From assembly GCA_030068145.1 (NCBI GenBank), contig JAPJBO010000396.1:62001-126000 (forward strand): a DNA stretch of 64,000 nt. The letters are read 5' to 3'. The stretch comes from Diplonema papillatum. Its lineage: Eukaryota > Euglenozoa > Diplonemea > Diplonemida > Diplonemidae. The number at the start of each line of letters is the position of its first letter. Positions within the stretch are counted from its first letter, which is position 1. Shown here piece after piece: positions 4,151 through 54,529 of this stretch. The notes beneath the pieces are model-generated. The model made no database searches and was not told the origin of the DNA. It saw only the letters and a list, made by a program, of their open reading frames with translations. The position numbers and the translations under genes were made by a program.

Positions 4151-4362
4151 GAATACTCGAGGGACTGCCTTGTGCTCATTTCGAAGGAGGCTAGAGGGGG
4201 AGAAAACAATACAACTACAAAGTGGGTCTTTTTTGTTGAACGCTTACGCCCGCCACTCAACCCAGATTTACCTGTGTTTCGTGTGGGCTACAGCACATTT
4301 ACCTCCTTTGATCTATCGCAACTGGCAGTCTCCTCAAGCATTTCCTACAAAGCAGGTGCTTG
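4151..4362 (-). repeat. R1 solo copy (YR-retrotransposon A-B repeat), end clipped
   Basis: Matches the A2-B2 terminal repeat of the element at 28.3-33.0 kb in reverse orientation. It runs from AATACTCGAGGGACTGCC to AGCAGGTGCTT and lacks the last ATACAAAA. Confidence 0.85.
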
Positions 4363-6989: not shown

Positions 6990-7200
6990 AAAAATACTCG
7001 AGGGGCTGCCTTGTGCTTACTTCGAAGGAGGCTAGAGGGGGAGAAACAATACAACTACAAAGTGGGTCTTTTTTGTTGAACGCTTACGCCCGCCATTAAA
7101 CCCAGATTCACCTGTGTTTCGTGTGGGCTACAGCCTTTGATATTTTGCAGCCGGCAGCCTTCTCGTAGTATTTCCTATAAAGCAGGTGCTTATACAAAAA
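6990..7200 (-). repeat. R1 solo copy, internally diverged
   Basis: AAAATACTCGAGGGGCTGCC to GCAGGTGCTTATACAAAAA. The middle lacks part of the ACATTTACCTCC segment, and it reads TTTTGCAGCCGGCAGCC where the young copies read CTATCGCAACTGGCAG. This is an older subfamily. Confidence 0.8.
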
Positions 7201-14092: not shown

Positions 14093-14246
14093 CACGGGGG
14101 GGGGGGGGGTAGGTAGTTGGAGAAGTCGGTATCTACTTGATTCGTAGACCCGTGGCTCTGCAGCCACGTGGAGCTTGATATCCACGCATCATATATATGC
14201 CCTCCCACGTGCTCGCATCCGTCGATCCAGCTGCTGCCCCAATACA

Positions 14247-14470
14247 AAAAATACTCGAGGGACTGCCTTGTGCTCATTTCGAAGGAGGCTAGAGGGGGAG
14301 GAAACAATACAACTACAAAGTGGATCTTTTTTGTTGAACGCTTACGCCCGCCACTAAACCCAGATTCACCTGTGTTTCGTGTGGGCTACAGCACATTTAC
14401 CTCCTTTGATCTATCGCAACTGGCAGTCTCCTCAAGCATTTCCTACAAAGCAGGTGCTTATACAAAAAAA
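14247..14470 (-). repeat. R1 solo copy, full length
   Basis: AAAAATACTCGAGGGACTGC to GCAGGTGCTTATACAAAAAA, complete A and B parts. Confidence 0.9.
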
Positions 14471-15211: not shown

Positions 15212-15418
15212 TTTTTGTATAAGCACCTGCTTTGTAGGAAACGCTTGAGGAGACTGCCAGTTGCGATAGATCAAAGGTGAATGTGCTGTAGCCCACAAAA
15301 TCTGGGTTTAGTGGCGGGCGTAAGCGTTCAACAAAAAAGACCCACTTTGTAGTTGTATTGTTTTCTCCCCCTCTAGCCTCCTTCGAAATGAGCACAAGGC
15401 AGTCCCTCGAGTATTTTT
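15212..15418 (+). repeat. R1 solo copy
   Basis: TTTTTGTATAAGCACCTGC to CTCGAGTATTTTT in the orientation of the YR element, with small deletions inside A. Confidence 0.85.
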
Positions 15419-23522: not shown

Positions 23523-23543
23523 TTAGCGTTTTTTTTTTTTTCT

Positions 23544-23762
23544 TGCATAAGCACCTGCTTTGTAGGAAATTCTTGAGGAGACTGCCAGTTGCTATAGATC
23601 AAAGGAGGTAAATGTGCTGTAGCCCACACGAAACACAGGTAAATCTGGGTTTAGTGGCGGGCGTAAGCGTTCCACAAAAAAGACCCACTTTGTAGTTGTA
23701 TTGTTTTCTCCCCCTCTAGCCTCCTTCGAAATGAGCACAAGGCAGTCTCTCGAGTATTTTTT
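23544..23762 (+). repeat. R1 solo copy
   Basis: GCATAAGCACCTGCTTTGTAG to CTCGAGTATTTTT. The sequence just beyond (TTCCTACAAAGCAAGCGCTC) resembles the end of an opposite R1-like unit. Confidence 0.85.
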
Positions 23763-24402: not shown

Positions 24403-24628
24403 AAAAATACTCGAGGGACTGCCTTGTGCTCATTTCGAAGGAGGCTAGAGGGGGAGAAAACAATACAGCTACAAAGTGGGTCTTTTTTGTTGAACGCTTA
24501 CGCCCGCCACTAAACCCAGATTTACCTGTGTTTCGTGTGGGCTACAGCACACTTACCTCCTTTGATCTATCGCAACTGGCAGTCTCCTCAAGCATTTCCT
24601 ACAAAGCAGGTGCTTATACAAAAAAAAA
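24403..24628 (-). repeat. R1 solo copy, full length
   Basis: AAAAATACTCGAGGGACTGC to GGTGCTTATACAAAAAAAAA, complete. Confidence 0.9.
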
Positions 24629-27066: not shown

Positions 27067-27292
27067 ATTTTTTTTGTATAAGCACCTGCTTTGTAGGAAA
27101 TGCTTGAGGAGACTGCCAGTTGCGATAGATCAAAGGAGGTAAATGTGCTGTAGCCCACACGAAACACAGGTAACCCTGGGTTTAGTGGCGGGCGTAAGCG
27201 TTCAACAAAAAAGACCCACTTTGTAGTTGTATTGTTTTCTCCCCCTCTAGCCTCCTTCGAAATGAGCACAAGGCAGTCCCTCGAGTATTTTT
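27067..27292 (+). repeat. R1 solo copy identical to the YR element's A2-B2
   Basis: TTTTTGTATAAGCACCTGC to CTCGAGTATTTTT. By eye it is base-for-base the same as 32753-32973, including the ACCCTGGGTTTAG variant that the older copies lack (they have AATCTGGG). It lies 1 kb from the element in the same orientation. Confidence 0.92.
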
Positions 27293-27368: not shown

Positions 27369-27597
27369 TGTTGCACGACTGCGCGACGAAGCCGCGATGC
27401 TGGGCGAGCCGTAGCTGGTTTTCCCGTGGTGCATTGCGAGCTGCACGTGACGTCTCGCGGGAGGAGTGGCTTGAGTCTTGCCAGTGCAGCGTAGCTCTGT
27501 TGCACTGATAAAGTGAAGGAGAACCACCCCCGGAGCGCGGAGACGAGTTTTTTATTTTCATTTTTCTTTTTGTTTGTGCGCACCAGTGTGTGCGCGA

Positions 27598-27845
27598 TCA
27601 GCCGGCTTGCCGGCTGATTAAATTCCGAGCCCTTTTTGTTTACCAGCAGACTCGCACAAAATCTGCCGTTTTCCAACAGTATAAGCCTTGGCTATGCCGC
27701 CCCTGGAGCGGAATCAGCTTGACGCACCGGCAACATGTTGTCGTAAACCCCTTCTGATCGGCAGACCTTCCAAAGGTCAGCCGGCTGATTATCAGCCGGT
27801 CAGTTTTTCAAGAACTTTTTTTTCCGGCTGAAAATCAGCCGCTTG
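27598..27845. repeat. Cluster of three CGGCTGA hairpins
   Basis: TCAGCCGGC-TT-GCCGGCTGA at 27598-27617, CCGGCTGAT-T-ATCAGCCGG at 27781-27799 and CGGCTGA-AA-TCAGCCG near 27826. All share the same arm sequence. They could be ends of a foldback element or binding sites. No gene lies between. Confidence 0.55.
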
Positions 27846-27989
27846 TTTCCTAACCACGAACACTGGTGCGCACGAGCGGAAATCACCTGTTTTGGTGAGT
27901 TTTTCGCGCCGTACGCCCTGCCAACTACCGGTTTCTTTTGTACAAATACTGCGTTGTTGACACAAGAAAATGGGGGGGGGGGGGGGGGT

Positions 27990-28205
27990 TGCTCGAAGGG
28001 AGGCTGCCTTGTGCTTATTTCGGCGGAGGCCAGAGGGGAGAAAAGTCATGCGACTGCAAAGTGAGGCCTTTTTGATTTGAACGATTACGCCCCAGATTTA
28101 CCCGGGTTTCGTGTGGGCTACAGCGCATTTACCTCCTTTGAGATTTTGCAACGGGCGGCCTCTTCGAGTACTTCCCCCGAAGCAGGTGCATATACAATAA
28201 AAGAA
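27990..28205 (-). repeat. R1-like diverged solo copy
   Basis: GCTCGAAGGGAGGCTGCCTTG to AAGCAGGTGCATATACAATAAA. Complete order, roughly 75-80% alike by eye. It sits about 85 bp from the left end of the YR element in opposite orientation. Confidence 0.7.
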
Positions 28206-28288: not shown

Positions 28289-28429
28289 TTTTTGTATAAG
28301 CACCTGCTTTGTAGGAAATGCTTGAGGAGACTGCCAGTTGCGATAGATCAAAGGAGGTAAATGTGCTGTAGCCCACACGAAACACAGGTAACCCTGGGTT
28401 TAGTGGCGGGCGTAAGCGTTCAACAAAAA
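28289..28429 (+). repeat. A1, left split terminal repeat
   Basis: TTTTTGTATAAGCACCTGC to CGTAAGCGTTCAACAAAAA. The gag ATG follows on directly, its A being the last base of the repeat, so the repeat probably acts as promoter and leader. Confidence 0.9.
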
Positions 28430-29922
28430 TGCCGAAGCAACTCGACAGGTCGGGCGCGGTGAGTTGGGTGAAGAGGGTGGTCGGGACTGATGTCCCGTCC
28501 CTTTTTTCCTTCACCGCGAACAACCGCCGTCTCTCGACGGTGTTGAAGGTCGCCCGCGAGGTCGAGGGCACCGCGGAAGCCGGGCTGAGGCGCCTCCTGG
28601 GCGCCTTGGGCTACACCGACGAGGAGGCCCCCCCGGAGGGCGTCGCCCAGTGGGTACTGGCGTGGCTCGCAGTCGCGTCGGCGCCTTCCGCCACCGAGGG
28701 CGAGTTCGCAGACCTGTTGCGCTCGTCCCCGAAGGCCGCGCCCCCGCCACAGACGCCGGGGCACATGCCGCTCCCCGCCACCCCCACCGACTCTACCGCG
28801 GCCCTATCTCCGCCGGCGGCGCGCCGCGTTTCGTTCGCTGAGAGCGACGACCCGGGTGATGGCGACCTCAGGGACTGCGGCTCCACCGAGGGCAGCCGGG
28901 GCGGCGACTCAGACCGCATGGACCGCCTGCAGCGGCAGGTCGAGCGCCTCACCGAATTGGTGATGGCGGCTCTCCCGACGCGCGACTCGCCGCGGCCTGA
29001 GCCTGTCCCCGCGGCGACGACTCACCCCGCACGCGACGCGCCTCCTGGTTGCCCCGCGCCTCCGCCGGTAGCGATGCCCGTTGGGTCCTTCCCCGCCGCC
29101 GCGGCCACGCCGCTGGACTCCTGTCCCTGCCCAGCGCCCCGTCAGGGGCCGCTCGCAGGCCAGCTCCCGCCACCTCCGCCTCTTATCGACGTCTCTCGGT
29201 TACCCCGGGCTGTCCTGCTGCCGGGCTCCTCCTGCGGCCTCTTGCGGGCCATCGAGGACGCCGCGCCGCCAGTGTACCGACACCATCCGTACGCTGAGCT
29301 CTACCAGCCCCGCGCCGAGCCCCCCCAGCCCTACGCTGGGTCTTCACAACCCCTTCCGGATTTTCCGGAGGGCCCGCCTTCGCTGGGGGAGGGCGGGTCG
29401 GTCCAAGGCTCCCCCACGCTCCTCTCCCCCGGGCCAGAGCTCCTCGACCCCCAGCTCTGGGTCGGCCTCAGCCCCATCGAGAAGTCGCTGGCCCTGGTGC
29501 ACATCCGCGACTTTTTCGCCGACATCCTCGATGCCATCCCGAGCGTCGCCAACGACGCCCAACATCTCACCAACCACGTCACCACCATCATGCGACTGAT
29601 GGACGACACCACCGACCCAGACGCCCTCGTCCAGCTGGGAAGGGACACCATCCACCGGATGATGGTCCTGAAGACGGCTCTGAAAGCCGGGTGGTCTCTT
29701 GCAGGCAGCCTCCAGCACCGGCATCAGCACGAGGCCGGGTTTCCTCCGTTTCTACGGAGCGTCTTCCAGGCTCTACAGAAAGCCGAGGAGCAGCCCGCCT
29801 CGAAGCCGCCCAGGAAGCGCAGCCCGAGGCCCCGCACCCGACACTCGGGCGAAGCTCTTCCCCCCGACGCTCCCCAGGCCCCTCAGCGGACGAACGCAAC
29901 CAGGAGCAAGGCCAAGCAGTAG
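28429..29922 (+). CDS. YR retrotransposon ORF1, Gag-like, 497 residues
   Basis: The start (MPKQLDRSGAVSWVKRVVG) is fixed by the end of repeat A1. The N-terminal about 110 residues are helical with a conserved-looking core. A long Pro/Ala-rich linker (residues 110-340) follows, then a helical domain from about residue 345 (PIEKSLALVHIRDFFADIL, then several amphipathic helices with DPDALVQLGRDTIHRMM), and a basic tail KPPRKRSPRPRTRHSG suited to nucleic-acid binding. There is no CCHC knuckle. It overlaps the next ORF by 232 bases, so the recombinase would need a -1 frameshift or separate initiation. Gag-like by position and composition, as in other YR elements; no sequence family is assigned. 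Confidence 0.75.
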   Translation: MPKQLDRSGAVSWVKRVVGTDVPSLFSFTANNRRLSTVLKVAREVEGTAEAGLRRLLGALGYTDEEAPPEGVAQWVLAWLAVASAPSATEGEFADLLRSSPKAAPPPQTPGHMPLPATPTDSTAALSPPAARRVSFAESDDPGDGDLRDCGSTEGSRGGDSDRMDRLQRQVERLTELVMAALPTRDSPRPEPVPAATTHPARDAPPGCPAPPPVAMPVGSFPAAAATPLDSCPCPAPRQGPLAGQLPPPPPLIDVSRLPRAVLLPGSSCGLLRAIEDAAPPVYRHHPYAELYQPRAEPPQPYAGSSQPLPDFPEGPPSLGEGGSVQGSPTLLSPGPELLDPQLWVGLSPIEKSLALVHIRDFFADILDAIPSVANDAQHLTNHVTTIMRLMDDTTDPDALVQLGRDTIHRMMVLKTALKAGWSLAGSLQHRHQHEAGFPPFLRSVFQALQKAEEQPASKPPRKRSPRPRTRHSGEALPPDAPQAPQRTNATRSKAKQ

Positions 29923-30863
29923 ACGCCGTGAACCGCTTCCCTCCTCCGGTCTCGGGGCGATGCGGACGTCCCCTCCTCTCGGAGCCCCCTCTCTCACCCG
30001 GCGAACGGAACCGTCTTGTCCGGACTGCGAACGCGTACGTGGCGGATGCACTGGCGCTGTCCACACGACGCGGGATCCACTCCGTGTACCGGCGCTTTCT
30101 GGAGTTCCGACGTCACTGGGATGCAGAGGCAGATTCGCAGCTCGATGTCCCGACGGCGCTGGTCTTGTTCGTGACCCGTTTGCTCTCTCGTGGAGACATC
30201 TGCGCGGCCTCGGCAGTACAGTACGTCGTCAACGTACAGTCGGCCGAGAAGCGGTTGGGGCGGCCTGTCGACAGCCAGCTCGTCAGGGACTTTGTCAGGT
30301 CTCTGAAACGGGCCGGCGCGATGAAGCCGTCGAAGCAGGCTGTACCGGTGACGAAGGACGAGCTGCATCTTGCCGTTGCCCTGGAAGCGGACCCCAGGGT
30401 GCGTGTTGCGCTGGCTTTGGCCTGGCAGGGTGCCGCCCGCGTGGACGACGTGCTGACGAGAAAGGCAGAGCACGTCACCGAAAGTGCTGGTTTCTGGGCG
30501 GTGAACTGGGTGGGCTCGAAGTCGGATCCTTTCCGTCTCGGCCAGGTGACAGGAGTGATTCTTCCTCCAGCCCAGGACCAGGAGCTCCGGACGCTGTTGT
30601 CGCAAACACCTCCGGGACGCCTCCTGTTCCCGGACCTCCCTTTCCGACGAGTTGTGACCGCGCTGAAGCGCGCGAACATTTCACTCTCCGGCCATTCTCT
30701 CCGGCGGGGCGCCCTGTTTCATCTCCTGAGAAGCGGGATCGACCTGAAGGTGATCCAAAGTGTGTCGCGCCATACGACGCTGAGTGCGCTAATGCGATAC
30801 CTTCCGGAGGCCGAGGTTCCGCTCGTCCGGAACACCGCGAGGGCGTCGGCGTCCCTTCTCTAA
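29691..30863 (+). CDS. Tyrosine recombinase of the YR retrotransposon
   Basis: It integrates the element by site-specific recombination of a circular DNA copy. The recognisable protein starts near 29925. An N-terminal core-binding helical region covers ALALSTRRGIHSVYRRFLEF and SAVQYVVNVQSAEKRLG. The catalytic domain follows with the first Arg in GAARVDDVL (about 30430), the H-x-x-R box SGHSLRRGALFHLL (about 30690) and the Tyr in ALMRYLPEAE (about 30795). The R-H-R-Y set looks complete. The frame is -1 relative to gag and has no Met before about 30320 after the gag stop, so expression by frameshifting in the 29691-29922 overlap is likely, though no convincing slippery heptamer was picked out. 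It lies upstream of RT, unlike DIRS and Ngaro. Confidence 0.88.
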   Translation: MVSCRQPPAPASARGRVSSVSTERLPGSTESRGAARLEAAQEAQPEAPHPTLGRSSSPRRSPGPSADERNQEQGQAVDAVNRFPPPVSGRCGRPLLSEPPLSPGERNRLVRTANAYVADALALSTRRGIHSVYRRFLEFRRHWDAEADSQLDVPTALVLFVTRLLSRGDICAASAVQYVVNVQSAEKRLGRPVDSQLVRDFVRSLKRAGAMKPSKQAVPVTKDELHLAVALEADPRVRVALALAWQGAARVDDVLTRKAEHVTESAGFWAVNWVGSKSDPFRLGQVTGVILPPAQDQELRTLLSQTPPGRLLFPDLPFRRVVTALKRANISLSGHSLRRGALFHLLRSGIDLKVIQSVSRHTTLSALMRYLPEAEVPLVRNTARASASLL

Positions 30864-32662
30864 CCCTTCGTCTTGAACCCCCTTTCCCGTTTAAGCCGCC
30901 CAAGAAGTTCCCCGACCCGTTGGCTACGTTCTACCAGGGGCCGGGAGAGGGTCCCGAAGAAGACTTGCCCCCCTCGATGTTCACTCCCTTTGTTGGTGTT
31001 GCTTACGGGGGTGAACTCCTCATCAACAACCTCACGGCCGTCCCTACGCAACGCAGAATCGGCGAGGCTCTCGCGCCCATCTCGTCATCGTTCATGAACC
31101 TTGAGAGGTTGACGGCGCTGGACAGCCGGGGGCTGCTGCGCGGTGTGCTGGACGTGGTCCGTTCGTGGGAATCCTTCCGGTCCGCCCTGCTCCCGGGGGC
31201 GGAGGAAGCGCTGATGGCATCGGCGATCACACGAACGACGTCGAGGCGCATGCTACGCCACTTCCCGGATCTGGTGAGATATGGCGTGGCAGAGGTCGCA
31301 TCGGGCGGGTTGAGGGTCGTCCTCCCCGCCTTCACTGTCGACAAGAAGAGCGGTGGGCAGAGGTTCGTGTGTGACGGTCGCAAGCTCAACGCGATCATGG
31401 CGCGCCCGCCTCCAATGCTGCTCCCTTCGGTTCACGAGGTGATCGACCGCGTGTTGGCCTCATCGGTGGTGTTTCTCGCGGACGCCCGGAGCTATTTTTA
31501 TCAGTTCCGGCTCGACGCAGACATCCGACCGTATTTTGGCATGCACCTGGCAGGGCCGCGGGGCCGTTTTGTACAGGCACAACTCGCCGCAATGTGCATG
31601 GGGTGGAGCTGGGCTCCGGCGATAGCTCAGAGGGCCTCCCGGGTGCTCCTACCGGAGGCTGACGGTCTACCCTGGGTGGACAACTTTGTCGTCGTGGGAA
31701 GCTCGTTGCGGGAGGCAACTTCGCGGTTCGACTCTTTCGTGCAACGCTGCAGGGACGTTAACTGCGAGCTCAACGAAGACGACGAGCAGTTTGGAGCCCC
31801 CCTCAGGGAGTTCGACCTCCTAGGACTCCATTTCGAACTCTCCCGGTTCGACCGCCCCGCCCGGTATAGGATGGCAGAATCGTGGGTGTCGAAATTGCTT
31901 GGTTCCCCCGAGCTCGCCATGGTTCGGCTTGGAGGAGTATCCCCTCGCCAGTTCTACCGGGTGTTCGGATCTTTGGTCTGGTTCGCGTACACGACACGTT
32001 TCCGACTGGCCTACGCCCGATGTTCCTTGTCGTTCCTGCAGAGGCTGGCCTCGACTCTGGCATCGGATCCAGCTGCCTGGGATGTGACGAGGGCTGTGCC
32101 GCCCTCGACGGTGCGTGAGGTCGAGCATCTTGTTTCCCTTGTGGAAGAGAATCGCTGGGTCAGTCGGTCAGAATCCTTTCCCTCATCGGTCACTCTCTGG
32201 ACAGACGCCTCGTCCAAATGGTGGGCTGCGGTCCTCGAAGGGGAATCTGAGCGCGTGTCACAGGGCCCCTTTGTGGAGTTGAGTCACACCCACATCTTTT
32301 TGAAGGAACTCTTTGCAGTCCTTCGGGGCATCGAGATGACCGCCAGTTTCCATTCGAACGTCCGCGTAAGGCTCATGGTAGACAACCTCCCGGCGGTCCA
32401 TTGTCTCAACAAGGGACACTCAAAGAATTTTGCGGCCAATGTCCTTTTGACGAGGATATTCGACGCCGCACGGGCTGCCGGCCTTGTCATCAGTGCCGAG
32501 TGGGTTCCGACCGATGCGCAAAGGGCCGACCCCTACACCCGCGGGGTGCTGGCCCTGGTGAGCGACACGCCAGAGAGTGTCTGGTCGCCTCATGCAGAGG
32601 ATCTAGCTCCGCCCTCAGATTTGGTGTGCCACTGCGTGGTCCCTGGGGGTCCTGATGCGTAA
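30863..32662 (+). CDS. Reverse transcriptase-RNase H of the YR retrotransposon
   Basis: The frame is open from 29699 to 32662; the specific part starts after the recombinase. It copies element RNA into DNA. RT signs: GGLRVVLPAFTVDKKSGGQRFVCDGRKLN (fingers), FLADARSYFYQFRLD with the first catalytic Asp (about 31480), MGWSWAPAIAQRA, and in place of the usual YxDD the sequence WVDN (31673-31684), so the second Asp is Asn. RNase H signs: LWTDASSKWWAAVL (about 32200), KELFAVLRGIEM, LMVDNLPAV and WVPTDAQRADPYTRG, so D-E-D-D is present. The frame is -1 relative to the recombinase. The stop TAA (32660-32662) lies inside repeat B1. No methyltransferase domain follows. Confidence 0.88.
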   Translation, partial: TLRLEPPFPFKPPKKFPDPLATFYQGPGEGPEEDLPPSMFTPFVGVAYGGELLINNLTAVPTQRRIGEALAPISSSFMNLERLTALDSRGLLRGVLDVVRSWESFRSALLPGAEEALMASAITRTTSRRMLRHFPDLVRYGVAEVASGGLRVVLPAFTVDKKSGGQRFVCDGRKLNAIMARPPPMLLPSVHEVIDRVLASSVVFLADARSYFYQFRLDADIRPYFGMHLAGPRGRFVQAQLAAMCMGWSWAPAIAQRASRVLLPEADGLPWVDNFVVVGSSLREATSRFDSFVQRCRDVNCELNEDDEQFGAPLREFDLLGLHFELSRFDRPARYRMAESWVSKLLGSPELAMVRLGGVSPRQFYRVFGSLVWFAYTTRFRLAYARCSLSFLQRLASTLASDPAAWDVTRAVPPSTVREVEHLVSLVEENRWVSRSESFPSSVTLWTDASSKWWAAVLEGESERVSQGPFVELSHTHIFLKELFAVLRGIEMTASFHSNVRVRLMVDNLPAVHCLNKGHSKNFAANVLLTRIFDAARAAGLVISAEWVPTDAQRADPYTRGVLALVSDTPESVWSPHAEDLAPPSDLVCHCVVPGGPDA

Positions 32663-32976
32663 GCGTTCAACAAAAAAGACCCACTTTGTAGTTGTATTGT
32701 TTTCTCCCCCTCTAGCCTCCTTCGAAATGAGCACAAGGCAGTCCCTCGAGTATTTTTGTATAAGCACCTGCTTTGTAGGAAATGCTTGAGGAGACTGCCA
32801 GTTGCGATAGATCAAAGGAGGTAAATGTGCTGTAGCCCACACGAAACACAGGTAACCCTGGGTTTAGTGGCGGGCGTAAGCGTTCAACAAAAAAGACCCA
32901 CTTTGTAGTTGTATTGTTTTCTCCCCCTCTAGCCTCCTTCGAAATGAGCACAAGGCAGTCCCTCGAGTATTTTTTT
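32658..32976 (+). repeat. B1-A2-B2 right split terminal repeats
   Basis: B1 CGTAAGCGTTCAACAAAAAA to CTCGAGTATTTTT, then A2 GTATAAGCACC to CGTAAGCGTTCAACAAAA, then B2. A and B share the 19-bp CGTAAGCGTTCAACAAAAA, the natural crossover sequence between the two halves. Confidence 0.92.
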
Positions 32977-46338: not shown

Positions 46339-47083
46339 CGAGGGATGGTGTGCCCTTTTGTTGTGGTGGACTTCCTGTTTTGGTTTCCTTTTGTGTGCGT
46401 GTGTAACGTGCAGGATCATTACCAAAGACTTCGATTCTGAATGGAACGAGGAAACGACTTTCAAACAGATTGGAAACGAGGATTCCAACATGACCATGAA
46501 GGAAATCAAAAATCCCGAGTGATCGGAAAGGCAAAACAACTGTCCCTCGGCTCAACTGCGGTTGATCGAGGGTGACATCAATTGCACTTATCGGTCGATG
46601 TCTTGGCTCTGGGAACGATGAAGACCGCGGCCAGACGCGATAGTCAATGGGAATTGCAGAAGCATGAGACGAGTGTGGTGTAAACCCGTTTTCACATGGT
46701 GCTCCTACTAGAAGCGTTCACCATGTGTAAGCGGTGGGTGTTGGAATTCATGTATAGGCAACCGCTGTTCGGAGTATGGCCCAGCGGCCGTAGGCTTCCG
46801 CGCCACAACTGACGCTCTTTCTTGCTGCCTGTGCTGTCCGGAACTGTAGCCTCGTTTGTCAGTGGCTCCCTGCTTGCTGCTCAAAACTGGGCCCGTCTGG
46901 GGTTGTCATAGTGACAGTGTCAGGCCAAATACCATTCCAGCACTATTTCCAAACTTTTTGCATCCAGCGCTGAACGCGGAGCAGCGAGAAGCGGTTGCGC
47001 GTGCGATGAGGACCCATTCTAGCAAGTCATCTACCTCCTGTCTGGCCACCAGGATCGCAACAGAAGATGATTTCTGCGCTCTC
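46339..47083. other. Upstream of chitinase; possible helicase relic
   Basis: Directly upstream is the shared leader AAGGGCACACCATCC. At about 46937-46999 the plus frame reads FLHPALNAEQREAVARAM, like the LNxEQxxAV motif that precedes the Walker A box of UPF1/MOV10-type SF1 helicases. No Walker A follows, so at most a relic. Confidence 0.3.
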
Positions 47084-48379: not shown

Positions 48380-48805
48380 AGGGGGGGGGGGGGGGGGGGG
48401 GGCAGTGCTGATACTAAGCCTGAGACCCAAAACGAAGTTGCTAACCCTGGGTGGGGGTGGGTACCCCCCCCCTCCTGGTGCAACCCACTGTGGACCTACT
48501 GTGGGACCCACCTTAGCTAAATTCTCTAAGGTGAAATGGTGGAAAAAGTGGGTCAAAAACTTTTTTTTTCGAGTGCTTTTTTGGGAGGATTTGGGCCAAA
48601 AAAAAATTTTTTTTTCTTGGTCGCTGCTGAGGAAACCACCTTAGAGCGGTCACCACCCTGCTGCACACAGGCCCTGCAGGAGGGGGGGGGGGGGGTACCC
48701 ACCCACCCCTCGTTGCCGTCCGGCTGACAACGATGCCGAGTTTAGGGGCCTTAGCATCAGCACTGGGAGGGGTGTCGCTTCCCCTCCATGAACTTTCCGA
48801 GAAAA
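48380..48805. other. G23 run and G/C-rich spacer
   Basis: G-run from 48380 to 48402, a GGGTGGGGGTGGGTACCCCCC palindromic stretch near 48450 and a second G-run near 48680-48693. No gene. Confidence 0.6.
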
Positions 48806-49024
48806 GATACTCGAGGGGCTGCCTTGTGCTTACTTCGAAGGTGGCTAGAGGGGGAGGAACAATATCAACTACAAGTGGGTATTTTTTGTTGAACGCTTAC
48901 GCCCGCCACTCAACTCAGATTCACCTTTGTTTCGTGTGGGCTACAGCACATTTACCTCCGTTGATCTTTTGCAGCTGGCAGCCTCCTCAAGTATTTCCTA
49001 CAAAGCAGGTGCTTATACAAAAGA
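48806..49024 (-). repeat. R1 solo copy, older subfamily
   Basis: AAGATACTCGAGGGGCTGCC to GGTGCTTATACAAAAGAAAA. Shares GGGGCTGCCTTGTGCTTAC and TTTTGCAGC with the copy at 6990. Confidence 0.8.
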
Positions 49025-50149: not shown

Positions 50150-53100
50150 CTACGGCGGGCGCAAGTCGTTGCGCCGTGGGCGCGGAGCGAGCCGTGGCCC
50201 TGTCAAAGATGATTGTTGCACCGATGGTGGCGCAGCCGGGGGCGTTCTGACTGGCGGACGAGACCGCCTGGCAGGCGTGTGTTGGCACGTTGTTTCGCGG
50301 GCTCTCCTCCTTTTGGCAATAGCCCGCCCTATGGCGGCGGCTAGCATCTTGACAGAGAATCTCAACTCCCACTGAACATAGGGTACGTCGTGCGGATATT
50401 CAGGCACGGCATCGTTCCAGCTGTTACGGGCGCAAATTGTTTCCAGCTTGCCCAACATCCACTCGGTCTTCCGTCCAGCCGCAAAGCGTGGGCGGTGGGT
50501 ACAACCCGGCATAGCCGGCGCACCAAAACAGCGGAGGGAACAGACCCCCTGCCGCCACTTCCCAGGGAAGGAGGCGACTCCTGAGTCGGCGCAGCACAGG
50601 TCGTTGATAGCTCGCATAAGGTACCCAATTTGCAGCCCCTTCTCGGCGAAGGTTCTCCCTGGGAGCTTCGAACGCGTAAATGCCTCAAAATCAAGCGCGA
50701 GTTCCACGCCTGTCGTCGGGAGAGGGTTGGAGCTGACCCATGATAGACTCCGCAGCCAGAAGACCAACGTCGCTGCGAAGCGGGTTCCGATGTTGGTCGT
50801 TAGCAACTTACGACTGTCCGTTGCTAAGTGTACGTCGTATTTCGTCGACGCACCTGAGGCGAGTTCCCAAGGGCGTGTTGCCGCAAGGCTCCGCTGCGCC
50901 TGCGCCATCTCGATTGAGATCGTACCGATCAGCCTCTGGATCTTCTCCAGGAGGTCAGGAGGGGTCCCGTAGGGGGGTATCCCTCTAATGCACAAGCACT
51001 GGGGCATGTCCCGGACCATCGCCTCAGCAATGCAAAACCGGGATCGCAGCTCGTTCCATCTACAACCTGGGCCCGGACATTGCCAGTAGTAATGCCACAG
51101 GGTCCCCGTCGCACCGCTGTCGCAGAACTCGCAGTCGCCGCTCCCCGAACCCCACTTCCTGCGGCACCATTCCCGTGAGTACACCGCTCCCCCAATACAT
51201 CGACTGATCGCGGAACTCAATTTGTGGTCCGTCGCGCGGTTCAGCCAAAGCCGATTCATGGCACGTACGTCCACCCCTCCTTCGATTCCGTCAAATCCTT
51301 GTCTCTGTGTGGTCAAGTAACGCCACGCGCGCAGACGCAGGCCCTCACGAAAGAGGTGTGGGGCTTCTTTACCGAGTAGCGACACGGGAGTCCCGTCGAA
51401 AGACAGGGACTGGAAGCTGTGCTGCGTGGCCCGTAGGAATCTTATCTCCCGCAGAAGATTAGCCATAAGACCTACGGGACCCTTGATAGACGAGTCGGCT
51501 CCCACGCGAAGGAGAGCGTCCATCCTCACCCGAAACCTCTCTTTCCCGTATTGTTTCACGAACGTGCGGAATAAGCTGAAACCTGAGGCGCATGCCGGAT
51601 CACACAGGTGTGCTTTTGCAACCAGGGAGAGAACCGCAAGAGGGCTCTTCGCCCGGTTAGATCGAGGGATCACGCAAGCGGAGAGTGCCGTTCGGAGCGT
51701 TGAGCTGTTGACGAAGCCACCTGTTGTATTCGTGCAGTAGGCCGCCCCGTAATACGCGGAGGCTGCGATCGTCTGCATTATGCGGAACTTCGTGCGATGC
51801 ATGAGCGGCGCCGCCTCAAGTCTGGCCGCGGCCTCGACCGTGGCGTTGGCCCTGCGGTTGTCAACGGGTCCCTCTGTGCCCAGGGGGACACCCAAAACCT
51901 TCACTATTTTGCTCGATCGAATTATTTTGCGACCGATCACGAGGCGAGGAGGCTCTGGGGACGTCGAGAAGGAGACCGACTTGTCCTCGTTGAGGGCAAA
52001 GCCTGTCAGGCTGTCGAACACCTCTGTGGTTCGAATTCCCTCTTGGAGTAGCCTCGCAAGTTGCGACAGCAGGTACAGATCGTCGGCGAACGACTTCGGA
52101 CTCACCCGAGCTCGGCTGACCAAGGCCTTCGAGAGAACAGAGAGGAGCGCGTTGATCAGGACCACTGATATCGGGCAGCCCTGGAGAATTCCGTTGGTGA
52201 CAGTGAACATCTCGCCGACTCCCAAGGGGTACCGGAAGCGACGCCGCAGGTGCTTGTATATGTGGCGTAAGGGTGCCAGCACACGCTCGTGAAGCCCAAG
52301 CGCCTCCATCAAGTCGAGCACCAGGGCCTGAGGGACGCGGTCAAAGCACTTGGCAAAGTCGAGTGCGACCCCGCACAGGGGTGTACCGTTCGTCAGTGAT
52401 TCCTCTATCGACAGGGCGATATCCATGACCACGTCGTCGCAGGAGTGGCCGTGCCGGAAACCATGTTGCGACCCGTGAATCCATAGCTCTTGCCAGAGCA
52501 TGACATCCTGTAGGCGCACGCTAGCCCAGAGTCGGTATACTACGCTCGAGACAGTAATCGGACGCAGCTTCAGTGGATCACTCCCTTCTCCTTTAGGAAT
52601 TAAGGTGACCATTGCGTCCAGGACTCCGTCGGGCCAGAAGCCGGTTTCCTCTACCTCGTTGAGCACCGCGACAAAGCTTTCCAGGATTGCATTCGGCAGA
52701 ACGGCGATTTCACGCATGCGCCAGCCGTCGACACCGCAAGACGTCTGTACGCTCTTCTTTTTCGCCACCTGACGAAGCCGCTCGGCCGTGATCGGATTTA
52801 GATTGCATGGGTGTTGCGTGATAAAGTCTTTGTACTCCTGGAAGAAAGGGGCAAACTCGGGTTCCCTCTTCTCGGCGTACATGCGGAGCACTGGATCCCA
52901 ACTCCTCCTCACCAACGCGTCAACTTCTGCCAAGTTCGCAGTGAGCCGCCCATCGGCCCCAGTTACAAACGATAACCCCGATGGCGCGTCTTTCTTCACC
53001 CAAGCGAACGATTCCTTCCCCAGGGGGTCGCGAAGCTCCCGCTGACTCCTCGCGCTCTTCAGGTATCTCGAAGTTAGCGTGCTATGCGCCAGGTCACGAC

Positions 53101-54529
53101 ACAGTCCTGAGACGGTAAACGCGAGGCCTCTTCCGATTTTCGCTGACGGCGGCTCGGGTGGCAGAGCACACTTCCCATCCGTGCGCAGCAACACGAAACT
53201 TCGAAAGGAGCGTATTTTCGTCCACTGTCCCTCAAGCTGGAAGGGCAAAGGGCCAGGGGAGACGATTGTGCTTTCCCATTTGGCTCTGGCGGCTGCGTAC
53301 TCCCGTATGCGCCCAAGGAGACACCTGGCTCTCTTCAAAGAAGCTGTATCGGCTCCCGCACCTTCAGGGGACGGCCTCGCCGATACTCGCTGAGAGTTCA
53401 ATTCCCGACGTACGCCACGGCCACAGTACCCGGTTAGGTTGCCTTCGATTCCGGATTTGAGGATGAGGTACTCTTCCGCAGCTCGCGAAGTCCGTTGCCA
53501 GAGGAAGTTCACCCGGGGGCTACCTTCGAGCCCGGGGGGGCAAGGGTCCCCGAGGCGGTACTTCTCAGAGACGTTCCGGAGGGCATTCGGGTCGTCCAGG
53601 CCGCTCAGCCCGGTGCTTGGAATTGCCCGGGGGTACCGGAGTACCGGGTTCAGTTGTTGGAATACTGCAAGATTAAAGGTGGCTCGGACCGCCTTGTGCG
53701 TAGGGAGGCCGGCTTCGAAAGTCTCCACGCGACCGAGAGCGGCAGAAGCGACTTCGTTGGTGAGAAGAAGGTCGATGCGTGACGGCTGACCGTGGTAACA
53801 TGTAAACTCTGCAGGACTTCCCAGGGCTTCAGCTTGCAGCTCGGCAGAGTCCGACCAGCCGTTGCGCAAGGCGAATCGGAGCGCCGGGGAACCGAGGGGG
53901 GTCGTGTTGAAATCGCCGGCGGCGACAAGGGGCACAGCACCCAAGCGCTGGCGCAATCCCCACAGGGATCCCTCGATCAACCTTTCCCGCTCGGGTTTTT
54001 CGGAAATGCCACAGTGACCGTACAATGACACCACGTGTACGGCTCCTTTACCTACACCTGTCGCGACACGTACATGCAAGAAGCGGGCCGATTCGTAGGC
54101 ACGTTGCTCGGCTGCGTCAAAAGGCTCGACGATACATGCAGGCAAGCCTTTCTTGACGAAAATCGCGACTCCTGCACTACCTCCTGTAACCTGGGATGGG
54201 ACGCTGTTGCCGCACTTCCGCCCAACACAGCAGCTGCCGAAGAAGGGTTGCCATACATCAAGGGCGCCGGCTTGTTTCAGGGCCATCCGGATACTTCTCT
54301 GCCCGGCACTCGTCAACTTCGTTTCTTGAACACAGATGATGTCCGCCGCTATGCAGATGAGGAGGTACAGGTTCTTCATCAAGGACGTGACATTTATAGT
54401 CACAATTCGAATTGGTGGAGGGCCAGGGTTGGGTTCGATACCTTGAGTCACGAGAAGCGCGTACGCTACGAGGGCCAGATAGAACTCTCTCGTCGGCTGG
54501 GGGGACAAATCGTTGGCGTGGATCACCAT
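50150..54529 (-). CDS. LINE ORF2: endonuclease-reverse transcriptase, 1459 residues
   Basis: It nicks target DNA and reverse-transcribes the element RNA there. Residues 1-37 are hydrophobic and end in GIEPNPGP (30-37), close to a 2A-type D-x-E-x-NPGP motif. APE endonuclease covers 40-285: N46, E69 in VQETKL, Y170 in SLYGHCG, D206/N208 in AGDFN, D253 in SRIDLLL, H278 in LPTHKAV. RT covers about 590-960: LIPKGEG, HGFRHGHSCDD, LDFAKCFD with D724, GILQGCPIS, FADD at 814-817, FALNEDKS. Further on come a CEFCDSGATGTLWHYYWQC zinc-binding motif and a C-terminal domain (RTFAEKG ... CSLRCFGAPAMPG ... RPRFAAG). No RNase H is seen. The start ATG overlaps the ORF1 stop as ATGGTGA, pointing to termination-reinitiation. 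The tail is basic and Pro-rich. Confidence 0.92.
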   Translation of the reverse strand: MVIHANDLSPQPTREFYLALVAYALLVTQGIEPNPGPPPIRIVTINVTSLMKNLYLLICIAADIICVQETKLTSAGQRSIRMALKQAGALDVWQPFFGSCCVGRKCGNSVPSQVTGGSAGVAIFVKKGLPACIVEPFDAAEQRAYESARFLHVRVATGVGKGAVHVVSLYGHCGISEKPERERLIEGSLWGLRQRLGAVPLVAAGDFNTTPLGSPALRFALRNGWSDSAELQAEALGSPAEFTCYHGQPSRIDLLLTNEVASAALGRVETFEAGLPTHKAVRATFNLAVFQQLNPVLRYPRAIPSTGLSGLDDPNALRNVSEKYRLGDPCPPGLEGSPRVNFLWQRTSRAAEEYLILKSGIEGNLTGYCGRGVRRELNSQRVSARPSPEGAGADTASLKRARCLLGRIREYAAARAKWESTIVSPGPLPFQLEGQWTKIRSFRSFVLLRTDGKCALPPEPPSAKIGRGLAFTVSGLCRDLAHSTLTSRYLKSARSQRELRDPLGKESFAWVKKDAPSGLSFVTGADGRLTANLAEVDALVRRSWDPVLRMYAEKREPEFAPFFQEYKDFITQHPCNLNPITAERLRQVAKKKSVQTSCGVDGWRMREIAVLPNAILESFVAVLNEVEETGFWPDGVLDAMVTLIPKGEGSDPLKLRPITVSSVVYRLWASVRLQDVMLWQELWIHGSQHGFRHGHSCDDVVMDIALSIEESLTNGTPLCGVALDFAKCFDRVPQALVLDLMEALGLHERVLAPLRHIYKHLRRRFRYPLGVGEMFTVTNGILQGCPISVVLINALLSVLSKALVSRARVSPKSFADDLYLLSQLARLLQEGIRTTEVFDSLTGFALNEDKSVSFSTSPEPPRLVIGRKIIRSSKIVKVLGVPLGTEGPVDNRRANATVEAAARLEAAPLMHRTKFRIMQTIAASAYYGAAYCTNTTGGFVNSSTLRTALSACVIPRSNRAKSPLAVLSLVAKAHLCDPACASGFSLFRTFVKQYGKERFRVRMDALLRVGADSSIKGPVGLMANLLREIRFLRATQHSFQSLSFDGTPVSLLGKEAPHLFREGLRLRAWRYLTTQRQGFDGIEGGVDVRAMNRLWLNRATDHKLSSAISRCIGGAVYSREWCRRKWGSGSGDCEFCDSGATGTLWHYYWQCPGPGCRWNELRSRFCIAEAMVRDMPQCLCIRGIPPYGTPPDLLEKIQRLIGTISIEMAQAQRSLAATRPWELASGASTKYDVHLATDSRKLLTTNIGTRFAATLVFWLRSLSWVSSNPLPTTGVELALDFEAFTRSKLPGRTFAEKGLQIGYLMRAINDLCCADSGVASFPGKWRQGVCSLRCFGAPAMPGCTHRPRFAAGRKTEWMLGKLETICARNSWNDAVPEYPHDVPYVQWELRFSVKMLAAAIGRAIAKRRRARETTCQHTPARRSRPPVRTPPAAPPSVQQSSLTGPRLAPRPRRNDLRPP

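Follow-up and report, generated by a model that had tools for sequence, protein, structure and literature searches.

A probable VIPER-type tyrosine recombinase retrotransposon in the diplonemid Diplonema papillatum

A 64,000-nt stretch of the Diplonema papillatum genome (GenBank assembly GCA_030068145.1, contig JAPJBO010000396.1, positions 62,001 to 126,000; hereafter, the window) was analyzed, and we conclude that it very probably contains an autonomous and recently active tyrosine recombinase (YR) retrotransposon of this host, assigned to the VIPER type on the basis of its gene order and repeats. As far as can be read from DNA alone, the case consists of the anatomy of the element, apparently intact catalytic residues, a T-tract as target, a single clean empty site belonging to a solo unit, and near-identical copies elsewhere in the genome. 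D. papillatum (Euglenozoa, Diplonemea) shares its phylum with the kinetoplastids without belonging to the Kinetoplastea. The initial annotation had placed the element in a non-trypanosomatid host, beside GH5, chitinase and LamG genes, and both points were confirmed: the host is a diplonemid and the neighboring genes carry GH5, GH19 chitinase and LamG domains. The accompanying statement that the element lies outside the usual host group holds for the class only; since diplonemids belong to the phylum of the kinetoplastids, the known range is extended by one class.

Such genes were partly noted before in D. papillatum: in the available text of the genome paper, TATE-like ORFs are counted under DNA transposons, and that main text, as available, makes no mention of repeats, solo units or an insertion site (PMC10161547). 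No report of a VIPER-like element in a diplonemid was found at the title and abstract level among the literature matches listed. Many VIPER-like copies of kinetoplastids are decayed or have no clear ends. In the D. papillatum assembly there are dozens of near-identical copies whose ends are exact, the target is defined as a T-tract, and an empty site is available, together with plentiful SIRE-like units and four related families in which the YR precedes the reverse transcriptase (RT). How insertion proceeds, where SIRE-type units come from and how old the VIPER type is can thus be tested in a free-living protist, Diplonema being a free-living marine relative of the trypanosome group.

Structure of the element

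The complete YR retrotransposon proposed by the initial annotation was recovered as a single element at window positions 28289-32974, with the organization A1-gag-YR-RT/RNase H-B1-A2-B2. The gag-like, YR and RT/RNase H ORFs all lie on the plus strand in this order, with the YR before the RT, and the split direct repeats are as proposed, A1 being 100% identical to A2 (141 nt) and B1 100% identical to B2 (101 nt). The span originally given, 28289..32976, is correct at its start, but its end had to be moved to 32974, where B2 ends with its T5; the two extra T residues belong to the T-run that follows. The features are as follows (all on the plus strand).

28289-28429: A1, 5' split direct repeat, 141 nt, starting with the T5 core (TTTTT followed by GTATAAG)
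28289-28293: T5 outer core of the 5' end; present again at 32753-32757 (B1-A2 joint) and 32970-32974 (3' end)
28410-28429: inner core, 20 nt, with which A ends and B starts; present again at 32657-32676 and 32874-32893
28429-29922: gag-like ORF, 497 aa
29691-30863: YR ORF, Pfam Phage_integrase 1.2e-8
29699-32662: ORF3, RT/RNase H, up to 987 aa, RVT_1 1.8e-5 (under the Pfam cut-off)
31079-31867: RT domain, motif A D206, motif C WVDN (D272 N273)
32183-32551: RNase H domain, acidic residues D447 E481 D506 D555
32657-32757: B1, 101 nt
32753-32893: A2, 141 nt, identical to A1
32874-32974: B2, 101 nt, identical to B1, with T5 as its 3' end, followed by the target T-tract

Comparison of copies showed that the 5' end of A1 recurs in other copies and that the T5 core is found at the 5' end, the B1-A2 joint and the 3' end; in family 3, a shorter core is common to A and B. 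The layout is not due to chance, because the host genome contains further near-identical copies, and a complete B1-A2-B2 is present at 26 of 40 scored RT-B1 ends. New details are the second core at the meeting point of A and B, the existence of alternative 3' ends, and the absence of stops from the RT frame throughout the YR gene.

Encoded proteins

A tyrosine recombinase with catalytic residues and an RT with RNase H, features of YR retrotransposons (order DIRS), are both present. The Pfam scan of the element detected Phage_integrase and RVT_1 as its only domains, and hence no methyltransferase; it gave no match for the gag-like ORF, which has no CCHC zinc finger and whose C-terminal part is related to the family 3 gag (24% over 190 columns).

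The YR frame is open from 29298, with its first ATG not before 30321 and its conserved part from approximately 29919. Numbered from 29919, the residues R174, K201, H259, R262, H285 and Y294, which we take to be the catalytic ones, are invariant in an alignment of 15 YRs. The YR and RT/RNase H ORFs overlap, the ORF3 frame being free of stops from 29684 across the entire YR gene and ending at B1. The usual RT motif C is YxDD; here it is WVDN or WIDN, invariant in the clade, and the four acidic RNase H residues are invariant in an alignment of 18 sequences. The YR models with a Cre fold and the RT models as Ty3-like. The absence of other families from the structure match lists is no argument against them. 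A deposited D. papillatum protein, P0021, has the same gag-YR-RT sequence, and the gene models deposited with it imply GT-AG introns at 29739-29782 and 30845-31056.

Insertion site

Insertion takes place into T-tracts at the T5 core. Solo A-B units lie in T-tracts, as full elements do, and 23 of 30 solo units have at least three extra T residues on their left side, as compared to 2.7% of 1200 control positions. One copy (L024) has the core variant TTTTG at both its 5' end and its B1-A2 joint, as expected from templating.

The initial annotation had suggested a search for empty sites. A clean one was found for a solo unit located in a tandem array: three empty array units of the matching kind contain T16 or T17, whereas the occupied one reads T17, unit, T5, so that target duplication is absent at this one site, which is that of a solo unit. 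The fetched stretch also contains four array units of a different kind, with T4 only. For the window copy, none of the 40 scored matches covers both flanks; its right flank is a dispersed repeat beginning at a T-tract, and its left flank matched solely its own place in the window among the 40 scored matches.

Solo A-B units

Forty A-B units with full identity to A2B2 were scored, and 30 of them stand alone; the window itself contains the following solo units.

27071-27292, plus strand: solo A-B unit, 100% to A2B2
23540-23762, plus strand: solo A-B unit, 96%
15212-15418, plus strand: solo A-B unit, A 97% with 15 nt missing, B 100%
24403-24624, minus strand: solo A-B unit, 98%
14246-14468, minus strand: solo A-B unit, 98%
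4152-4361, minus strand: solo A-B unit, 98.6% over 210 nt, incomplete ends
48802-49022, minus strand: solo A-B unit, 90%, closer to family 2
6990-7200, minus strand: solo A-B unit, 87%, closer to family 2
27992-28200, minus strand: old solo A-B unit, 76%, adjoining the full element in opposite orientation

The unit at 15212-15418 was considered as a chimera when its A part looked divergent; this was rejected, as A is 97% identical with 15 nt missing.

Solo units could arise by recombination between A1 and A2 with loss of the interior, or small A-B forms could be inserted directly. It is quite possible that they represent an independent small element mobilized by the YR rather than deletion products. 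Solo units make up 30 of the 40 scored A2B2-identical units, as compared to 7 of 40 RT-B1 ends without A2B2 (two of the seven being a single insertion), although both counts were taken among the matches listed and the two lists were sampled differently. The B repeats are separated by 217 nt and the A repeats by 4.5 kb, so that deletion should occur more readily between the former, and the T-tract location of solo units is like that of full ones; on the other hand, recombination between A1 and A2 yields an identical product, and the empty site is consistent with both origins.

Relationship to VIPER, TATE and DIRS groups

In the literature consulted, the accepted hosts of VIPER-like elements are all Kinetoplastea, and matches in a few bacterial records are regarded as contamination or kept for the YR only (PMC6681497). 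In our protein searches (approximately 8000 candidates scored in each), no match was named as kinetoplastid, VIPER or TATE, and none as Ngaro or PAT; most matches are nameless, and some of these could be kinetoplastid, VIPER or TATE proteins. A scan of viral contigs gave 37 pattern matches and no relatives, and one of prokaryote genomes gave 50 pattern matches and a single relative, L079, a contig in a Chromatiales MAG. We read L079, P0057 and P0059 as DIRS-like, a name that their records do not carry. None of the weak matches P0057-P0062 has a Pfam tyrosine recombinase, and P0060 has a retroviral-type integrase.

A 29-row RT tree, with no rows dropped, places the element within its own clade only. 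A second tree combined 15 of the 28 in-clade rows with six outside RTs (L079 and P0057-P0061; P0062 was left out); it grouped the DIRS-like trio with a support of 100 and split off all six with a support of 72. The new clade linking VIPER to other DIRS-order elements that the initial annotation had envisaged is not supported, this second tree setting the clade of the window apart from the DIRS-like group. Because the host is related to the kinetoplastids that bear VIPER and TATE, the VIPER-like order can be explained without such a link.

The gene order and repeats common to VIPER and the element could still reflect convergence. An element of Ngaro or PAT type, in which the YR moved ahead of the RT independently of VIPER, is improbable. 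The A1...B1A2B2 layout is found in Ngaro and PAT as well, repeat features of YR elements being homoplastic and arising repeatedly (PMC4157794, available text), and the protein search reached no named VIPER protein; nevertheless, the YR precedes the RT in all four D. papillatum families seen (see below), no methyltransferase domain was found in the element, SIRE-like A-B units are present, and the host belongs to the phylum of VIPER hosts.

Copies and related families

Near-identical full-length copies, for which a search of the host assembly had been suggested, are present. Among 73 scored RT copies in the genome, 42 are at least 97% identical and 31 are 82-83% identical. Equal length and 0-10 differences in 4469 nt relative to the window copy were observed in 26 of 31 fetched copies, and the three frames have the same lengths in 27 of 32 compared copies; both counts include L028 and L034, which are a single insertion with the same flanks on two contigs.

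The 82% subfamily (L080) has the YR before the RT and split direct repeats A1...B1-A2-B2. The family of L083 and L084 also has the YR before the RT (YR identity of approximately 46%), and in a fourth family Phage_integrase lies ahead of RVT_1 in 3/3 deposited proteins scanned. In some copies of the P0052 family, a single ORF apparently holds all three genes. The YR-only loci L081 and L082 were set aside as further families, as no RT-like ORF of at least 200 aa was seen beside the YR when judged by eye.

The B2 of L084 is 96% identical to that of family 2 and 65% to its own B1, and L084 thus appears as a clear chimera between families, the sole one left; exchange between families 1 and 2 is hard to detect, since their A and B are 96% alike.

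The YR ORF is no separate insertion, because the same order occurs in the 26 same-length copies (two of them one insertion), in L080 and in L083/L084. That the gene order is an artefact, through a YR inserted into an RT element or copies that are assembly duplicates, is highly improbable: five of the fetched copies match the window copy letter for letter from A1 to B1, and L028 and L034 have identical flanks on two contigs, but these are the sole pair alike on both sides among the flanks compared, the YR overlaps ORF3 with ORF3 kept open, and the order recurs in more distant families.

Proposed transposition cycle

The RNA of the VIPER-type element would be packed by Gag and copied by the RT/RNase H, with the internal B1-A2 joint presumably serving as the template that rebuilds both ends. 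The DNA form may be closed, probably as a circle, at the T5 core, from the B end to the A start (...CTCGAGTA-TTTTT-GTATAAG...), and the YR would insert it by exchanging strands at its T5 with a host T-tract, which would leave no target duplication. Gag-YR and Gag-RT might be produced by frameshift or splicing; we infer this joining of frames because an early ATG is missing from the YR and the ORF3 frame stays open across it. In the relative P0001 (68%) the YR starts with ATG, which argues against the YR always being a Gag fusion.

A wider reading, which we offer tentatively and with some doubt, is that the VIPER type predates the separation of kinetoplastids and diplonemids, that T5 is the insertion site, and that the core GCGTTCAACRAAAA at the A/B meeting point is a second site, connected with the end swap between families (L084) and the alternative 3' ends; the A-B units would be self-moving and SIRE-like, and ORF3 would be kept open through the YR so that one transcript could give Gag-YR and Gag-RT by alternative frame joining.

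Comparison with known elements

The DIRS-like L079 resembles the element in having an RT and a YR, and RT motif C ends in DN in L079, P0057 and P0059; it differs in that the RT precedes the YR and no split repeats were seen on inspection of its contig, and the three group apart from the clade of the window in the RT tree. PAT, TOC and kangaroo of Volvox share split direct repeats with the element but carry a methyltransferase; in kangaroo, the YR is inverted and internal repeats lie between the methyltransferase and the YR (PMC4157794, available text). Neither a methyltransferase nor inverted repeats, which are PAT- or DIRS-like features, are present in the element, the repeats of which are direct. 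Ngaro has the RT before the YR. It shares split direct repeats, RT/RNase H, a YR and the lack of a methyltransferase with the element and was compared by description; it is a separate group in print.

The closest likeness in organization is to VIPER and TATE. In these, a gag-like ORF is followed by YR and RT/RNase H ORFs that overlap, the repeats are arranged as A1...B1-A2-B2, and target duplication is stated to be absent in the available text (PMC6681497, PMC12278014). An RNase H closer to that of hepadnaviruses than to those of other YR elements is also counted among the marks of VIPER-like elements. The element has the same ORF arrangement and split direct repeats, no methyltransferase was found in it, and no target duplication was seen at the one solo-unit empty site. 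Overlap of the YR and RT/RNase H ORFs is described for VIPER-like elements (PMC12278014, available text); Ngaro and Viper are elsewhere said to be usually without ORF overlap (PMC3266345), and in Bodo saltans TATE copies all three genes lie in a single ORF (PMC6681497, PMC12278014, available text). The differences are the diplonemid host, the lack of a sequence link in protein searches and, for TATE, the target, which is the telomeric repeat there and a T-tract here. The CCHC box of Gag is missing in some VIPERs, as in the element. Finally, the solo A-B units correspond to A2+B2 of the element, just as SIRE of T. cruzi corresponds to A2+B2 of VIPER (PMC6681497, PMC12278014, available text).

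Anatomy and reading frames of the element

The YR retrotransposon noted in the initial annotation was confirmed: at window positions 28289-32974 the order is A1-gag-YR-RT/RNase H-B1-A2-B2, and both repeat pairs, A1/A2 (141 nt) and B1/B2 (101 nt), are 100% identical in this copy.

Parts of the window element
28289-28429, A1
28429-29922, gag-like ORF; no domain in the Pfam scan
29691-30863, YR ORF; Pfam Phage_integrase (1.2e-8)
29699-32662, ORF3, RT/RNase H; Pfam RVT_1 (1.8e-5, below the Pfam cut-off)
32657-32757, B1
32753-32893, A2
32874-32974, B2

The end of A and the start of B have 20 nt in common (28410-28429, 32657-32676 and 32874-32893), and B meets A at a run of five T (T5, 32753-32757).

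The YR frame is open from 29298, with its first ATG at 30321, and the ORF3 frame is open from 29684. In family 2, the 82% subfamily, no ATG was found in the YR frame before codon 375; a contrary case is the related protein P0001, which has an ATG at the YR start. Through YR, the ORF3 frame contains zero stops in family 1 (the window element and near-identical copies), family 2 and the third family, while synonymous-codon shuffles gave means of 9.0, 9.0 and 6.7 stops, with minima among 5000 of 1, 1 and 0, respectively (the test of the third family begins where its ORF3 is open). Control ORFs analyzed in the same frame had 5 stops versus 5.9 in the shuffles, 11 versus 18.3, and 35 versus 46.9, so a mild general stop depletion exists, but nothing like zero. 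Substitutions between families 1 and 2 in the overlap number 29, 9 and 113 at YR codon positions 1, 2 and 3, which indicates that the YR protein is conserved and that ORF3 is kept open but is free in sequence. We propose that RT would be reached by translation from gag through the open ORF3 frame and that YR would be made as a Gag fusion, the frames being joined either by frameshift or by short GT-AG introns such as those implied in the deposited gene models.

Copies and solo A-B units in the host genome

The RT protein was searched against the host assembly (271.4 Mb, 2910 contigs); among the best 73 of 2688 first-look candidates, which were scored, 42 copies were at least 97% identical and 31 were at 82-83%. 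The three frames measure 497, 390 and 987 codons in 27 of 32 copies (the window copy and 31 fetched ones). The A1-to-B1 length equals that of the window copy in 26 of the 31 fetched copies, with 0-10 differences per 4469 nt, and five of the 31 show zero differences from the window copy over this stretch. Loci L028 and L034, whose flanks agree on either side, are a single insertion seen twice. Where comparable, A1 and A2 differ by 0-3 nt, except in L023 (8), and B1 and B2 by 0-2, except in L020 and L036 (B2 at 95% and 94%, gapped alignment). Judging from these sequences, the element appears to have been active recently. It is also present among NCBI-named Diplonema papillatum proteins: the match of P0021 (DIPPA_33724) to the window YR spans 310 of 314 residues, and that to the window RT is at 99% over the covered 49%.

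Nine A-B units that lack the element's interior lie in the window, with 76-100% identity to A2B2. A genome-wide search gave 594 first-look candidates, the best 40 of which were scored, every one 100% identical. Ten of these have the B end directly upstream and also occur in the RT-B1 list, and are full elements; the other 30 are solo units (29 fetched, one in the window). No gag, YR or RT matches were found around the 29 fetched units within 300 or 1500 nt per side.

Target site

Among the 31 full-type loci that have a 5' flank, 26 carry at least six T, T5 included, before GTATAAG; the remaining ones are L024, L028, L034, L035 and L041. At least three further T occur on the left of 23 of 30 solo units, versus 2.7% of 1200 control positions taken from these flanks, and on the right of just 4 of 30. 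In L024 the core reads TTTTG at both the 5' end and the B1|A2 joint, as expected if one site templates the other.

An inverted-repeat stretch rich in CCGGCTGATT lies at window 27567-27882, and a related repeat forms a tandem array on contig C4 (L085) that was the target of a solo-unit insertion. Three uninterrupted array units of matching kind carry T16 or T17, the occupied unit consists of T17, the solo unit and T5, and other target bases are neither duplicated nor lost at its joints. A search for the empty site of the window copy scored 40 matches, none of which covered the two flanks together.

Three different repeats that start right after a T-tract form right flanks of the element: one at L014, L023, L050 and L057, another at L029 and L030, and a third at L017 and L039. 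The element thus entered each of them at this place repeatedly, so T-tracts that border other repeats act as recurrent targets.

Alternative 3' ends

The best 40 of 385 candidate RT-B1 ends were scored (36 fetched, the window copy, and three judged from the A-B unit list). A2B2 follows in 26 and is absent in seven, six of which stop at the T-run after B1 (two being the same insertion), while the seventh, L067, reaches seven bases into A2. Another five stop within five bases of the A2 end. L024, L026 and L027 stop two or three bases before that end; L070 stops five bases beyond it, within B2, and L022 four bases beyond it, where the sequence is like the A-gag joint. The flanks of L022 are mutual inverted repeats (97% over 243 nt). 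Of the other two, L023 continues into a family-2 derivative, and B1-A2 of L041 is followed directly by the first 121 nt of gag; the latter layout resembles a head-to-tail repeat of the element with one common A. In a separate list, L076 and L077 end at A2 (within five bases of its end) and after B1, respectively. That ends recur at two places, after B1 and at the A2 end, suggests that the cores are where the breaks behind alternative 3' ends occur.

Related families and RT phylogeny

The family 2 locus L080 matches the window element in anatomy, in its T5 and in its 20-nt core. The third family shows about 46% identity to the window element in YR and 48-49% in RT (from the related deposited proteins P0003, P0032 and P0035); L083 has gag-YR with RT cut short, and L084 has YR-RT and a gag with a deletion. 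Its A and B have a shorter common core, GCGTTCAACGAAAA. The last B of L084 is 96% identical to family 2 versus 65% to its own B; in this single case, ends were exchanged between families at the A|B core.

In a fourth family (P0019/P0052; RT identity 63-66%), Phage_integrase lies ahead of RVT_1 in all three deposited proteins scanned (P0049, P0051 and P0052), with matches below the Pfam cut-offs. In genomic copies, matches to gag and RT (C759, C405, C313, C607 and others) or to YR and RT (C811, C1334, C283 and C362) are in phase, within open frames that are equally long, at about 1280-1500 codons. From match positions and frame lengths, these copies apparently form one continuous ORF, which fits the proposed translation of RT from gag and the Gag-YR fusion. 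The deposited D. papillatum proteins P0050 and P0052 are gene models joining such elements to other sequence (YKT6-like name; ankyrin repeats), and are probably annotation artefacts. YR ORFs with no RT seen nearby were found at L081 (C204) and L082 (C1574), and are perhaps of Crypton type; upstream of YR, L081 carries a tandem array with a repeat unit of 53 nt, of which 19 overlapping copies were listed.

In a first RT tree (29 rows, 476 columns), families 1 and 2 and P0019 group together at 100, as do the third family, P0035 and P0032; both groups lie amid environmental relatives and a single EukProt transcript. A second tree (21 rows, 477 columns) combined 15 in-clade rows with six outside RTs, and the split between them has a support of 72. 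L079, on a contig in a Chromatiales MAG, groups at 100 with P0057 and P0059, all three DIRS-like by our own reading. This group and the split place the window RT outside these DIRS-like sequences, and nothing found supports the earlier suggestion of a clade linking VIPER to other DIRS-order elements.

Genomic surroundings

The neighbours noted initially are indeed present beside the element: the GH5 gene, the LamG proteins, and a chitinase that belongs to GH19. On the minus strand, window 50150-54529 holds the ORF of a non-LTR retrotransposon, with domains for endonuclease and RT; GIEPNPGP near its start resembles a 2A-type peptide, a motif known from trypanosomatid L1Tc. On the plus strand, a full-length 5.8S rRNA match (46583-46736, 49.8 bits), besides which the Rfam scan of the window at gathering score gave nothing, is perhaps a dispersed rRNA fragment; dispersed 28S rRNA fragments are reported for D. 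papillatum (PMC10161547). The same source describes a genome of about 280 Mb, rich in transposable elements, with more than 60 ORFs similar to DNA transposon proteins, TATE included.

Comparison with VIPER, TATE and other groups

VIPER and TATE are described as having a gag-like ORF and two overlapping ORFs (YR; RT/RNase H), with A1 / B1-A2-B2 repeats and without target duplications (PMC12278014, PMC6681497); according to PMC3266345, ORF overlap is not usual in Ngaro and Viper. In kangaroo the YR is inverted, and PAT elements contain a methyltransferase (PMC4157794). No proteins named VIPER or TATE were among the hits of three protein searches. The window element shares with VIPER the gag-like ORF, the overlapping YR and RT/RNase H ORFs and the A1 / B1-A2-B2 arrangement, and this match to the published anatomy suggests that it works like VIPER. 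In its structure, it is an element of the VIPER type; its host (Euglenozoa, Diplonemea) belongs to a lineage related to the known hosts, and it provides useful new details on such elements. SIRE, the short form related to VIPER in T. cruzi, is described as A2+B2 of VIPER (PMC6681497), and the solo A-B units stand in the same relation to the full element here.
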